64,000 nt of DNA. Source: Archaeoglobaceae archaeon. Lineage in GTDB: Archaea; Halobacteriota; Archaeoglobi; Archaeoglobales; Archaeoglobaceae. Each line of letters starts with the position of its first letter. Positions within the stretch are counted from its first letter, which is position 1. Where the stretch lies: NCBI GenBank assembly GCA_026986375.1, contig JALSOQ010000016.1:1-64000 (forward strand), in the 5' to 3' direction. Shown here one piece after another: positions 3,012-53,437 of the stretch. A program made the translations under genes and the position numbers. Under the pieces are notes generated by a model. That model made no database searches and was not told the origin of the DNA. It saw only the letters and a program-made list of their open reading frames with translations.

Positions 3012-3712
3012 TTCTCCCTCAACCTCCTGTCGAACTCGAACATGAATATTCCGGCCGCGACGGAAAGGTTTAGACTATTCACCTTCCCCCTTCCGGGAAT
3101 CTTCGCTATAAAATCGCACTGCTTTTTCACCGATCTCGAAATACCCCTATCCTCCCCCCCTATCACTATCGCCACCGGGGGAGAAAGATCCACGTTGCTT
3201 ATATCCTCCCCATCCAGATCCGCTCCTACCACCGTTATACCGAATTTTTTGAGCTTTTTCAGAGCGTTCGCCATATTTTCGACCCTCGCTATGTCCAAGT
3301 GCAACGCCGCTCCGGCAGAAACCCTAACGACAGTATCTGTAACCTGCACCGCCCTCCTCTTCGGAATAACCACTCCCGCACATCCGAAGAACTCAGCAGA
3401 TCTTAGCACCGCTCCCAAGTTGTTAGGATCCTCCACGGAATCCAAGAACAGGAGGAATGATCCCGTTCTGAGGCATTTGTCGATTAAGTAGTCGATTTCC
3501 ACGTATTTTATCGGAGATATGTCCGCGGCAATCCCCCTCGAATCCTTGGGAAGTGAGGAGCGAGGAACGTAAACAACTGGTATCCCCCTCTTCTTTGCCA
3601 TCGCTATTATCTCCCTTATCCTCGGGTTGTTCGTATCCTTGTCCACGTATACCTTGTTGACCTTCCCCGACTTCAAAGCTTCCGCGACGCTGTTTATACC
3701 CCCCACCCTCAT
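3008..3712 (-). CDS. TrmH/SpoU-family RNA 2'-O-methyltransferase
   Basis: A 234-residue SPOUT-class methyltransferase, expected to methylate the 2'-OH of a ribose in rRNA or tRNA using S-adenosylmethionine. An N-terminal substrate-binding domain starts GGINSVAEALKSGKV, as in RlmB-type enzymes. The three SpoU motifs follow: motif 1 DPNNLGAVLRSAEFFG (Asn and Arg), motif 2 VAIVIGGEDRGIS, and motif 3 IPGRGKVNSLNLSVAAGI, which form the knotted cofactor site. A longer reading from 3781 adds 23 residues with no family similarity and would leave no promoter space for the divergent gene, so the ATG at 3712 is chosen. The RNA target is not predictable from sequence. Confidence 0.85.
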   Translation of the reverse strand: MRVGGINSVAEALKSGKVNKVYVDKDTNNPRIREIIAMAKKRGIPVVYVPRSSLPKDSRGIAADISPIKYVEIDYLIDKCLRTGSFLLFLDSVEDPNNLGAVLRSAEFFGCAGVVIPKRRAVQVTDTVVRVSAGAALHLDIARVENMANALKKLKKFGITVVGADLDGEDISNVDLSPPVAIVIGGEDRGISRSVKKQCDFIAKIPGRGKVNSLNLSVAAGIFMFEFDRRLREK

Positions 3713-40320: not shown

Positions 40321-41031
40321 TTATCCCTTCCAACTCTCCTTTACCTCCCTCTTGGTCGGAATCCTGTTTCTGTAAGGGCAGTCCTTCGGACGAGCTTCGT
40401 TTTCCGGACATAGACCTATCGTATAACCCCTGCAACCGACGTTTTCGAAAATCTCCGGATATATTTTCACTACGATGTCGTATATCTTCTGCGCGAGCTC
40501 CCTTATCTCTGGGGCCGCTCTCTTACAGAGCCTCAATCCCAAGAAGTTTATCAGGCTCCTCGCGTTTATCGTCCATATGTAATGGGTGTGGGTGGCCATA
40601 GGAAGGACGTAACGCGAAGCTTCTAACGCTTCGGCCTTCGAATAGCCCTTTTCGAGCATTCTCTCGTATATTTTTACGTAATGTTGTCTCGCGGACTCCA
40701 TCGCCTCCTTAAACATTTCGACGAGCTCTTCATCATCGGCAATCGTCGGAGGAACCACGTAGCCGAAGTCCTTCTCGATGTTGTATCGGGTCGATCTCGC
40801 GGTGTGGCTCGCTATCCTGTGCTCCAAAAGCTCCCTGCTTATCGCGACGCTCATCCCCTTTATCTCGAAAGTGAAGTATATGTGCTCGATGGCGCTCGTG
40901 TAGTCGTTCTCCACGACCATCCTAACTATCTCCTCGTCGCTCAACCCTTCGGGAATCCCGCTCACCCTGCAACCTCTCGCGACCAAACTCACCCCGTCCG
41001 GAGTGTATCTCAAAAGTTTAACCTCGACCAT
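40321..41031 (-). CDS. thyX: flavin-dependent thymidylate synthase
   Basis: A 236-residue FAD enzyme that methylates dUMP to dTMP with methylene-tetrahydropterin and NAD(P)H. The ThyX motif RHRx7S appears as EHRIASHTARS at about residue 69, so the His, second Arg and Ser are kept but the first Arg is Glu. Other family parts are present: RYNIEKDFGYVVPP, ASRYVLPMATHTHYIWTINARSL and the C-terminal REIRELAQKIYDIV-type helix. The C-terminus has extra cysteines (VGCRGYTIGLCPENE and DCPYRN), possibly a metal site. Its ATG follows the nrdG stop directly (TGAATG) after a GGAGGAGG site. Confidence 0.9.
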   Translation of the reverse strand: MVEVKLLRYTPDGVSLVARGCRVSGIPEGLSDEEIVRMVVENDYTSAIEHIYFTFEIKGMSVAISRELLEHRIASHTARSTRYNIEKDFGYVVPPTIADDEELVEMFKEAMESARQHYVKIYERMLEKGYSKAEALEASRYVLPMATHTHYIWTINARSLINFLGLRLCKRAAPEIRELAQKIYDIVVKIYPEIFENVGCRGYTIGLCPENEARPKDCPYRNRIPTKREVKESWKG

Positions 41032-41736
41032 TCAAACCTCCTCCTCTCCCTCACACCTGACTATAACTTTCGGAACGTTCCGCTTTGCAATTCTTCCCAA
41101 TTCGAGTAGATAACCCTTTGGATAAGGTTCGACATTTCTGAGCTTCTCGTCCAAAACGTCTTCGTTCCTGAACTGCTGGAGGACGTATTTTCTCACCCCG
41201 AATTCCGACAGAACCTCCGAGATCTTCTCTATCTCCTCCCCATCTATTATCGTTGGAACGACCGTTGTCCTAACTTCATATTCGATGCCGGAGTTAGCCA
41301 AAATTTCGAGCGACTTCAGGACTCTTTCCGCGGAATCCCCCCTCCCCGTCAATTCGGCGTATCTTTCCGGAGTCGTCTTGAAGTCCATGGCAACGTAATC
41401 CACCAGATCCAGCACCTTCGAAAGCTTTTCGGGATAGTAACCGTTCGTGTCGATCTTTACCGCCAAGCCAAGATCCTTCAACCTTCTCAACAGTTCTAAG
41501 AGCTCCTCCAAGTCCTGAGCCAAGGGTTCCCCGCCGGTGAGGCAAACCCCGTCTATGAGGTAGTTTCTTTTCACAGCCTCTACGATCTCATCGACTCCTA
41601 CCTTAATCCCGCCGCTCAAGAGCCTGTGGTTCTGGCAGTAAGGACATCTGAAAGGACATCCGGCGAAGAATATTACCGAGCATAGCTTTCCGGGAAAGTC
41701 TATTGTGGAAAGGTCGAGAATGCCTCCCCAGAGCAT
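41032..41736 (-). CDS. nrdG: anaerobic ribonucleotide reductase activating enzyme
   Basis: A 234-residue radical SAM activase that generates the glycyl radical in NrdD. The cluster motif is Cys27, Cys31, Cys34 in AGCPFRCPYCQNH, and the SAM-binding GGEPL is in CLTGGEPLAQDLEELL. The length and the N-terminus GGILDLSTIDFPGKLC match the NrdG/PflA-like group used by archaeal class III reductases. Co-directional nrdD and a glutaredoxin-like gene upstream support this role over a general pyruvate-formate-lyase activase. Confidence 0.88.
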   Translation of the reverse strand: MLWGGILDLSTIDFPGKLCSVIFFAGCPFRCPYCQNHRLLSGGIKVGVDEIVEAVKRNYLIDGVCLTGGEPLAQDLEELLELLRRLKDLGLAVKIDTNGYYPEKLSKVLDLVDYVAMDFKTTPERYAELTGRGDSAERVLKSLEILANSGIEYEVRTTVVPTIIDGEEIEKISEVLSEFGVRKYVLQQFRNEDVLDEKLRNVEPYPKGYLLELGRIAKRNVPKVIVRCEGEEEV

Positions 41737-41740
41737 GCTA

Positions 41741-41989
41741 TCACTTCATCAGCTTGAGAATCTCCTGTTTAAGCTGTTCCTTCGTAGGAACCTCCCCTCT
41801 GAAAAGAACTTCCTCGCCGAAAGCTATGGAAGGTGTCGAAGCCACGTTGAACTGTAGAGCGGTTATGAGATCCTTTTCGATGTCTATCTCTTCATACTCA
41901 AGCCCAAGTTCCTCGGCAACCTCCTTAGCAATAGCCTTAGCGTTCGGACACTGCGGACAGTCCTTTTTCGTGAACACTATCAACTTCAT
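41741..41989 (-). CDS. glutaredoxin/thioredoxin-like redox protein
   Basis: An 82-residue thioredoxin-fold protein with the redox motif CPQC in VFTKKDCPQCPNAK (~12) and the cis-proline loop STPSIAFG. Its small size and NrdH-like layout fit an electron donor for ribonucleotide reductase or a general disulfide reductase. The longer reading to 42070 would run through a guide RNA gene on the other strand; ATG 41989 starts the fold exactly and has a TATA element 26 bases upstream (about 42011-42020). It is followed by nrdG after 4 bases. Confidence 0.85.
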   Translation of the reverse strand: MKLIVFTKKDCPQCPNAKAIAKEVAEELGLEYEEIDIEKDLITALQFNVASTPSIAFGEEVLFRGEVPTKEQLKQEILKLMK

Positions 41990-42010
41990 GTTCGATGCTC
42001 GGGGGACATT

Positions 42011-42020
42011 GTTTATATTG
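42011..42020. promoter_or_regulatory. TATA-like element facing both the guide RNAs and the glutaredoxin gene
   Basis: GTTTATATTG is about 27 bases before the expected 5' end of the first C/D RNA on the plus strand (about 42040). On the minus strand, read as CAATATAAAC, it is about 26 bases before the glutaredoxin ATG (41989). One element may serve both directions, or two promoters overlap. Confidence 0.45.
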
Positions 42021-42037
42021 CTTGACATCCTAAAAGG

Positions 42038-42098
42038 GTTGGATGATGATTGAATCCAATCCTGAGCCAAGCGATGATGACGTAGCCCGCGCCTGAAA
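42038..42098 (+). ncRNA. C/D box guide RNA 1 (2'-O-methylation guide)
   Basis: Box C ATGATGA (42043-42049), a 12-base guide TTGAATCCAATC, box D' CTGA (42062-42065), an 8-base spacer, box C' ATGATGA (42074-42080), a 12-base guide CGTAGCCCGCGC and box D CTGA (42093-42096). Both guides have exactly 12 bases between boxes, as in archaeal C/D RNAs, where the base paired to the fifth guide position before D or D' is methylated. The second guide is complementary over about 10 bases to CGCGGGCTAC, a sequence I recall from archaeal 16S rRNA (tentative). Ends are approximate. Confidence 0.85.
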
Positions 42099-42103
42099 AT
42101 ATT

Positions 42104-42160
42104 TCCGATGATGACCCCTCCCCTAACTGAAAAAATGATGATTGCCGATTTCTCTGAGGT
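42104..42160 (+). ncRNA. C/D box guide RNA 2 (2'-O-methylation guide)
   Basis: Box C ATGATGA (42108-42114), a 12-base guide CCCCTCCCCTAA, box D' CTGA (42127-42130), a 4-base spacer AAAA, box C' ATGATGA (42135-42141), a 12-base guide TTGCCGATTTCT and box D CTGA (42154-42157). It starts 11 bases after box D of guide RNA 1, so the two are probably one precursor. Expected targets are TTAGGGGAGGGG and AGAAATCGGCAA in rRNA or tRNA, which I cannot place. The 3' end touches the last bases of nrdD on the other strand. Ends are approximate. Confidence 0.85.
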
Positions 42161-44244
42161 TATCCCAAATTAACCCTCTTTCTGTCGAAAAGTTCTTTCC
42201 TCTTACCGTCGTTCCAACCGCTAACCCTTTGATAGTAACCCGTCACCCTCGAATACCATTCCACGTTGCTACTACCGCAGTTCGGACAACTCTTTTTAAT
42301 TCCTCCGCTGAGGTTCTTACAGTCTCTGCAGAACGTCATGTCCTTCGTGTAGGCCCAGTAACCGATGAGCGTCTTGGTTGCGATCTTCTTGGTGAGTTCC
42401 CATAGGAGTTCGGGATTCGGAGAACTCTCGCCGATCCAAACGTGAGCCATCATACCTCCGTTGCAGAGCGGGTGGAAAGCCCCCTCTATCCTGAGCCTCT
42501 CGAACAGCGGAACGTCCGCACTGACTCTCACATGGGATGAGTTGGTGTAGTAGACCGCACCGGTCTTAACATCACCCTGCACGACCGCCTTTCCGTTGAA
42601 CTCCTTCAGATCGAGCAAAGCCAATCTGTGTGATGCTGATTCCGCCGGAGTCTGCGTTATCACCCATCTCTGTCCCGTCTCCTCGCTCCACTCCATCGCT
42701 ATGTCCATCATCCTCTTGATGACCTCCAATCCGAACCTCCACGCATCCTTGCTTTCGTGCAACTCTTCTCCGGTATGAGCCTTGAGCATCTCGTTCAATC
42801 CGACGAAACCTATCGATCTAACGACCTTATCCACTCTGTAATACGGCTCACCGTTCACGTCCTGCGTTAGGAACGGCAGAGACCCTTGCTTCATTCTCTT
42901 GAGTATTATATCTCTCTTGATCTCTATAACTTCTCTCGCAAGCTTCATCCTCTCCTCAAGCAGTTCGAACAACTTCTCGTCGTTTCCGTTGGATTCGTAG
43001 GCTATCCTCGGAAGGTTTATCGTAACCACTTGCAGACTTCCGGTTCTCATGCAACCGTTCTTGAAATCCTCCCAATCGGTGTTATCTGGCGAAAGGACTA
43101 ACCTGCAACATTGAGCGAATACGTTATCGGGCAGATAGCCGGCCAATAGGTTGAGGAAGTAAGGAGAACCGTATTTTGCAACGACCTTATGCACGAGGAT
43201 CATGAACTCGTCGAAACCTTCCTTCTTGAAGCACTCCCTTCTGAGCTTGTAGTTGGGCTTGGGGAAGAAGAACGGCTTTCCTACGTAATCCCCCTCCAAG
43301 TAAACCTCCGTCAAGGCACGAGCGAACATTATCGCCTCTTCCTCGAAGTCTCCGTAAGTTATGGAATCCTTAACGACACCTCCGGGCAGAACGGCTGGCA
43401 AATCTTGACAGATCTTCGGAACTCCGTATTCTATGTCTATGTCGCTGAAAACTACCTGCCCACCCCTCGCCACATACATTTGGCTTAATTCGTAAATGAA
43501 CATCTGAGCAAGCTGTTTAATCTCCTTATACGTTTTTCCGGCCATGTAAGGTGCAAGCCAGACGTTGAAGAAATCCAAACCCTGCCCACCGGCGAAGTTC
43601 GTCTGTGCCGCAGCCAGAGCCTTAGCGGCGTGCAGAATAGCTACTTCAGCGTTCTTAGCCGGCCCAGCTACTGCGGTGTTCTCTCCAGTTCCATCAACTT
43701 TAAGCCCGTTCTTCAAGAACCACCTCAAGTCGTGCTGGAAGCAATACGGACGGGTTACGAAGTATTCCAAGTCGTGGATGTGGATCTCTCCCCGCATGTG
43801 TGCGTCAGCCAGATGAAGGGGAAGAGCCTTCAGTAAGGCGTATTCCTTCATCACCCAGTCAGCGACGAGCTTGTGGATAGTTTCGGGGTTGTGCTGAAGG
43901 TTTGCGTTCTCCCTAACTCCCTTCTCTATTATCTGGGTTGCGTCGTAAACCGGTAACCCCAAACGGGTGTAATCCCTCCTTGCATCCTCAAGTCTCCTTT
44001 CGAGCAACTTTACGTTCACAATCTCTCTGATCAGCGGGGCGGAGATGAACTTCAGCTTGAGCTTCTTGATGGTCTCTTCAACTTCCAACGCTATCTCTTC
44101 CGCGATTTCCTTGGAGATTCCTGTCTCTTTAATAAGAGATTGAACTATTTTTCTCCTGTCAAAGCTTTCGAGCATGTTTCTGGAGGTTCTGACCGTCAGA
44201 AACTCCTTGTTGTGATCGTATTCGGTATCGAATGTTTCGGGCAT
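42160..44244 (-). CDS. nrdD: anaerobic (class III) ribonucleoside-triphosphate reductase
   Basis: A 694-residue glycyl-radical enzyme that reduces ribonucleotides to deoxyribonucleotides without oxygen. An N-terminal ATP-cone lies at ~15-105 (VRTSRNMLESFDRRKIVQSL). The ten-stranded barrel follows, with YCFQHDLRWFLKNG and FAGGQGLDFFNVWLAPY. The C-terminal zinc site is CRDCKN and CPNC, and the radical glycine is expected in SRVTGYYQRVSGW (~670). No intein. The ATG at 44244 is chosen because the frame before it has no family similarity. The gene lies upstream of the glutaredoxin-like gene, nrdG and thyX, with guide RNAs in between on the other strand. Confidence 0.93.
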   Translation of the reverse strand: MPETFDTEYDHNKEFLTVRTSRNMLESFDRRKIVQSLIKETGISKEIAEEIALEVEETIKKLKLKFISAPLIREIVNVKLLERRLEDARRDYTRLGLPVYDATQIIEKGVRENANLQHNPETIHKLVADWVMKEYALLKALPLHLADAHMRGEIHIHDLEYFVTRPYCFQHDLRWFLKNGLKVDGTGENTAVAGPAKNAEVAILHAAKALAAAQTNFAGGQGLDFFNVWLAPYMAGKTYKEIKQLAQMFIYELSQMYVARGGQVVFSDIDIEYGVPKICQDLPAVLPGGVVKDSITYGDFEEEAIMFARALTEVYLEGDYVGKPFFFPKPNYKLRRECFKKEGFDEFMILVHKVVAKYGSPYFLNLLAGYLPDNVFAQCCRLVLSPDNTDWEDFKNGCMRTGSLQVVTINLPRIAYESNGNDEKLFELLEERMKLAREVIEIKRDIILKRMKQGSLPFLTQDVNGEPYYRVDKVVRSIGFVGLNEMLKAHTGEELHESKDAWRFGLEVIKRMMDIAMEWSEETGQRWVITQTPAESASHRLALLDLKEFNGKAVVQGDVKTGAVYYTNSSHVRVSADVPLFERLRIEGAFHPLCNGGMMAHVWIGESSPNPELLWELTKKIATKTLIGYWAYTKDMTFCRDCKNLSGGIKKSCPNCGSSNVEWYSRVTGYYQRVSGWNDGKRKELFDRKRVNLG

Positions 44245-44367
44245 AATTACCAGTAGATTCGAGACTTTAAAAATTTGCTGCTTAATATACATTTGATCCA
44301 GATGAAATAGAGTCCAGACTAAATATTTAACTTTGATTTGGATATATTTTCGATAAGAGAACCGGAG

Positions 44368-53002: not shown

Positions 53003-53437
53003 ATGGATCTCGACAGGTTGCTAACCGAGGAAGGAAGGAGATGTGCGGTATGGATTCTAAAGAGGGTCGGAATCGCCGATAACGTGGATATAGAACCTAA
53101 AGAGCCGATGTTCGAGGAAGAGAAGTTGAGCGACGAAGAAATAGATTTGTTCGACTACGTGGAATCTCTGCTATTCGCGGACGAATACGAGCGAGCTTAC
53201 GGAGTTGCGATGAATGTCGTTAGGGATTTGATGAAAAGGAAGAGATACAGGAGTGCGTTATACGTCTGTCAGATGATCGGTGATGAAATTCTGAGGATGG
53301 AAATTCTGAAGGAGGGTTTGATTCACTACGAGAGCGTCGGCGATTTCAAAAACGCGATGGACTTCGCCCGCCTCTTAGGCGATATAGGAAGATATGAGAT
53401 TTACAAAAGTCTGTGGGAAATCTATCAACGTCTGTAG
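53003..53437 (+). CDS. uncharacterised helical protein
   Basis: A 144-residue soluble, acidic, helical protein I cannot assign. After a short N-terminal helix (DRLLTEEGRRCAVWILKRVG) and an acidic linker, residues ~50-144 read as pairs of helices (YVESLLFADEYERAYGVAM, RSALYVCQMIGDEILRMEI, HYESVGDFKNAMDFARLLG). This resembles a TPR-like or other alpha-solenoid repeat, suggesting a protein-binding role. It overlaps the convergent cytidylate kinase gene by 13 bases. Probably an order-specific gene. Confidence 0.65.
   Translation: MDLDRLLTEEGRRCAVWILKRVGIADNVDIEPKEPMFEEEKLSDEEIDLFDYVESLLFADEYERAYGVAMNVVRDLMKRKRYRSALYVCQMIGDEILRMEILKEGLIHYESVGDFKNAMDFARLLGDIGRYEIYKSLWEIYQRL

Follow-up and report, generated by a model that had tools for sequence, protein, structure and literature searches.

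Archaeal dual-guide C/D box sRNAs form a well-known class (Dennis et al. 2015, PMC4644070; Breuer et al. 2021, PMC7994747), in which the methylated rRNA ribose is the one paired with the fifth base before the D' or D box (N+5 rule, PMC4644070). Among its described members, sR46 of the Thermococcales (Rfam RF01130) has been seen in Thermococcus kodakarensis by RNA-seq, in linear and circular forms (PMC9014305). The two guides of Nanoarchaeum equitans sR15 are predicted to pair one with each strand of 16S helix 30, and chaperone bridging was proposed for them, and for Methanopyrus kandleri sR88, compared with sR39/sR119, a circular rearrangement that swaps the guide positions has already been proposed (PMC4644070).

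In the window, i.e. the whole 64,000-nt stretch of Archaeoglobaceae DNA that was analysed, the gap between nrdD and a glutaredoxin gene contains two units of this ordinary type, sRNA-1 and sRNA-2 (Table 1), which are essentially no different from the described RNAs and are new to annotation. The best explanation, to which we assign a probability of about 95%, is that both are dual-guide C/D box sRNAs and predicted guides for rRNA 2'-O-methylation. This agrees with the identity proposed in the first-pass annotation, and is based on the box anatomy, guides kept at unrelated loci, rRNA sites paired at N+5, about 19 further genes in the same genome, and fibrillarin. The covariance search advised in that annotation gave a divided answer: at gathering thresholds, Rfam returned no match at the sRNA pair, and in E-value mode sR46, snoPyro_CD and sR1 appeared below the gathering score with low E-values, the latter two as sub-threshold matches of sRNA-2. 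sRNA-1 has the D' guide core TGAATCCAAT adjoining the C box in common with sR46, and therefore the same predicted 16S site, whereas the second guide is of the GACCCCAGAGTGG-type in some Thermococcus and TAGCCCGC in Archaeoglobaceae. With 27.0 bits (E 2e-4) against a gathering score of 50 bits, and only the D' guide shared, we do not regard sRNA-1 as a member of RF01130. A TIGR-Tas array was also considered and rejected; such arrays have an adjacent Tas protein gene and DNA-directed guides (PMC12045711), whereas the neighbours here are other genes and the guides match rRNA.

The C/D box pair between nrdD and a glutaredoxin gene

The first-pass annotation had placed a single C/D box gene in this gap, with consensus C, D', C' and D boxes and guides of exactly 12 nt. 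Direct reading of sRNA-1 confirmed each of these details, but a second complete unit, sRNA-2, which follows 11 nt downstream, had been overlooked, and the tandem pair places four 12-nt guides in the gap. Both units have a C box (RUGAUGA) and D box (CUGA) near their ends and C'/D' boxes inside, and they combine this with the other features by which archaeal C/D sRNAs are recognised: rRNA complementarity, conservation in relatives, and a fibrillarin gene in the host genome (PF01269, 236.6 bits). Each sRNA would be transcribed, processed and bound by L7Ae at its C/D and C'/D' kink-turns, after which Nop5 and fibrillarin would be recruited, the two guides presented, and the rRNA riboses designated by the N+5 rule methylated by fibrillarin. 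Around the pair, at 40321-44292 of the window, genes of deoxynucleotide synthesis (ThyX-like, NrdG, glutaredoxin, and NrdD) are tightly clustered, all of them on the minus strand, and acetyl-CoA synthetase-like, tRNA, and histone-like genes are also found nearby (some genes were named by inspection).

Table 1. Positions of the two sRNA units and flanking features in the window
Feature	Position	Strand	Description
Glutaredoxin/thioredoxin-like gene	41741-41989	-	Pfam PF13192/PF00462; flanks sRNA pair, start at 41989
TATA-like box	42011-42018	.	TTTATATT; between sRNA-1 and glutaredoxin start, 25-32 nt before sRNA-1 C box
sRNA-1, whole unit	42043-42096	+	ATGATGA-12 nt-CTGA-8 nt-ATGATGA-12 nt-CTGA, from sequence
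sRNA-1 C box	42043-42049	+	ATGATGA, from sequence
sRNA-1 D' guide (guide 1)	42050-42061	+	TTGAATCCAATC, 12 nt; predicted target 16S G939 (E. coli 962)
sRNA-1 D' box	42062-42065	+	CTGA, from sequence
sRNA-1 internal D'-C' spacer	between 42065 and 42074	+	GCCAAGCG, 8 nt, from sequence
sRNA-1 C' box	42074-42080	+	ATGATGA, from sequence
sRNA-1 D guide (guide 2)	42081-42092	+	CGTAGCCCGCGC, 12 nt; predicted target 16S G1211 (E. coli 1231)
sRNA-1 D box	42093-42096	+	CTGA, from sequence
sRNA-2, whole unit	42108-42157	+	ATGATGA-12 nt-CTGA-AAAA-ATGATGA-12 nt-CTGA, from sequence
sRNA-2 C box	42108-42114	+	ATGATGA, from sequence
sRNA-2 D' guide (guide 3)	42115-42126	+	CCCCTCCCCTAA, 12 nt; tentative target 23S near E. 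coli 1765
sRNA-2 D' box	42127-42130	+	CTGA, from sequence
sRNA-2 C' box	42135-42141	+	ATGATGA, from sequence
sRNA-2 D guide (guide 4)	42142-42153	+	TTGCCGATTTCT, 12 nt; predicted target 23S A1797 (E. coli 1670)
sRNA-2 D box	42154-42157	+	CTGA; ends 2 nt before nrdD stop codon (42160-42162, minus strand)
nrdD, anaerobic ribonucleotide reductase	42160-44292	-	Pfam PF13597; flanks sRNA pair, convergent

A strict C/D pattern matched twice in the window and not once in 200 order-5 Markov simulations of it (25.6 Mb, both strands), and the independent-base expectation for the window is ~2e-7. A census of the own genome, carried out as a pattern search with a looser pattern, gave 22 matches compared to 0 for the backwards control. 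The claim that the boxes were very unlikely to have arisen by chance is therefore upheld. Three of the 22 matches are sRNA-1, sRNA-2, and their middle combination, and several of the ~19 others are paired; one tandem and one divergent pair are located at C10:53015-53148 (units at 53015 and 53101) and C9:23561-23697 (23561 and 23652). Degenerate C/D-like sequences do exist, e.g. at locus L147 of the own genome, but considering the perfect boxes in two adjacent units, the outcome of the simulation and pattern controls, and the guides kept across genera, it is extremely improbable that the pair is a chance or decayed sequence without function. The middle combination, composed of the C'-D half of sRNA-1 and the C-D' half of sRNA-2 (42074-42130), also fits the loose pattern, and this, together with the short gap between the units, would suit a single processed tetra-guide or hybrid unit, in which these halves also function together and the pair is an array. 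However, no other unit found in the own genome has a spacer as long as 11 nt, and genome G014 has both sRNAs complete at separate loci, which makes such a unit very unlikely.

The A+T content in the genome peaks 28-37 nt upstream of the sRNA C boxes, and the first-pass annotation had pointed to a TATA-like element upstream of sRNA-1. The element is present, but its assignment to sRNA-1 is doubtful. When scored with a promoter motif (roughly AAAC-CTTTTATA) trained on 18 other sRNA genes of the own genome, it reached 4.9 in the direction of sRNA-1 (plus strand) and 9.4 in the direction of the glutaredoxin gene (minus strand), and 4.9 is unremarkable, the 90th percentile of random 50-mers being 5.4. 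After this scoring, the box was no longer used as independent proof of an sRNA-1 promoter. The box may work in both directions; if it does not, sRNA-1 would rely on a weak or read-through promoter. A TATA-like motif is found in only ~20% of archaeal C/D genes (PMC7994747), so a weak promoter does not count against sRNA-1. The motif score of sRNA-2 was -0.3, and this unit most likely depends on the sRNA-1 transcript.

Predicted rRNA targets

Targets were searched in the rRNAs of the own genome using the N+5 rule, and P values were obtained with shuffled guides. Guide 1 forms 11 contiguous Watson-Crick pairs with the 16S sequence AATTGGATTCAA, which points to G939 (P = 0.0017), and guide 4 forms 11 Watson-Crick pairs and one G-U pair with the 23S sequence GGAAATCGGCAA, which points to A1797 (P = 0.0023). 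The 10 contiguous inner Watson-Crick pairs of guide 2 with the 16S sequence ACGCGGGCTACA would direct methylation to G1211, a prediction that is marginal when taken by itself (P = 0.08); G1166 (E. coli 1186) was considered as well, yet pairing there contains an internal mismatch and G1211 was preferred. Guide 3 gave no significant target in the own-genome rRNA (P = 0.49). It is conserved in G014 and G053, where sRNA-2 is a stand-alone gene, and because guide 3 of G014 forms an uninterrupted 11-base pairing near E. coli 1764, at the homologous 23S site (P = 0.07), a weak target near E. coli 1765 is possible but unproven. In sRNA-2 homologues (L086 and L087, ~1501-1548), including that of G014, guide 4 has slid 2 nt along its 23S target sequence, so that the predicted site is 1672 instead of 1670 (E. 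coli numbering). The best pairings with tRNAs were weaker than those with rRNA, and the 9 pairs of guide 3 with tRNA-Pro(GGG) were not convincing. Thus, the comparison with rRNAs and tRNAs proposed at the outset was productive for guides 1 and 4, borderline for guide 2, not significant for guide 3, and unconvincing for tRNAs.

In the 16S structure of E. coli, we take position 1231 to be located in the 3' strand of helix 30 and position 962 in the adjoining helix 31. sRNA-1 would therefore resemble the helix-30 bridging pair of N. equitans sR15, although the 962 site apparently lies a few nt 3' of helix 30, and the position match to the sR15 alignment numbering is approximate. With the predicted G939 and G1211 sites on opposite sides of the helix 30/31 region, sRNA-1 may have a role as a folding bridge besides methylation.

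Gene contexts and guide order in relatives

Guide 1 with its boxes (TGATGANNGAATCCAATNCTGA) was found in 41 GTDB records, 40 of which are archaeal, mostly Thermococci and Archaeoglobaceae, and also Altiarchaeota, Methanofastidiosia, and others, and most of these show a plausible second C/D unit. The remaining Flavobacteriia match (L036) has no second guide unit and was treated as chance. The second guide differs by lineage, and its TAGCCCGC-type, with the guide core kept, is present in Archaeoglobaceae, in 10 of the 55 genomes searched. In these ten Archaeoglobaceae genomes, sRNA-1 with both guides occupies seven gene contexts: the nrdD/glutaredoxin gap in the source genome, the end of a permease gene in G001, G002, and G004, and further contexts in G010/G060, G014 (a cas2-like ORF), G015, G050, and G003 (neighbour names by inspection). 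Since the gene contexts differ, the conservation of sRNA-1 is not a by-product of coding-gene conservation. In G014 (L091, ~1470-1522), sRNA-1 lies just past the cas2-like ORF and ahead of an apparent type III Cas gene. The permease locus is present in the own genome as well, but sRNA-1 is absent there; on contig C9, a C/D-like but degenerate sequence (ATGAGGA-12 nt-CTGA-GGT-GTGATGA-12 nt-CGAG) is found at this locus (L147, ~3050-3130), in the orientation opposite to that of sRNA-1 in relatives.

In G001 and G002, no sRNAs are present between nrdD and glutaredoxin, and the gap is taken up instead by an antisense ORF of 193 aa that is membrane-protein-like (L009 860-1510, L010 796-1510). Loss of the boxes in close relatives with the flanks kept had been named as evidence against a gene, and literally this is what G001 and G002 show, yet both carry sRNA-1 at another locus, which therefore indicates relocation and not a false gene. 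Judging from these comparisons, sRNA-1 is retained while its genomic position changes. The same observations bear on the possibility that the k-turn elements act only in cis, as an L7Ae-bound, plus-strand antisense regulator of the nrdD 3' end or the glutaredoxin 5' end, with incidental guides. The pair does have an antisense position in the gap, right next to the nrdD stop codon, and T. kodakarensis is reported to have antisense C/D RNAs at the 3' ends of genes (PMC4247193). However, the same guides are found beside unrelated genes in relatives and match rRNA, and the element is missing from this operon gap in G001 and G002, so that we consider regulation in cis very unlikely and rRNA guide function the preferred reading.

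The order of the guides varies as well: guide 1 precedes guide 2 in G000, G001, G002, G004, G010, G014, and G060, and the order is swapped in G003, G015, and G050. This is reminiscent of the rearrangement in M. kandleri sR88, with the difference that the latter concerns paralogues within one genome, whereas here the order differs between related species, in genes that correspond to each other and have kept both guides. In G003, the tail past the terminal D box reads GCCTTA, the same letters with which the internal spacer (GCCTTAGCG) begins in the unswapped G010 and G060. This suggests a permutation, although the match is short and CTGAGC often occurs at D boxes. For hyperthermophiles, there is good documentation of C/D RNAs in circular form (PMC7994747, PMC3695527). 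It is conceivable, but rather improbable, that the C/D sRNA genes of Archaeoglobaceae are mobile modules, and that the swapped copies arose from a reinserted circular sRNA or DNA copy opened in the old D'-C' spacer; the trace in G003 would be identical after a tandem duplication from which the outer halves were then lost.

With this analysis, an Archaeoglobaceae genome gains two guide RNA genes that had not been annotated, along with ~20 strict candidates across the genome as a whole. With one sRNA that has kept both guides in seven contexts and in both orders, the analysis also provides a compact comparative case, and movement and permutation of C/D genes therefore become testable. If the predictions hold, 16S G939 would be a widely conserved archaeal 2'-O-methylation site.
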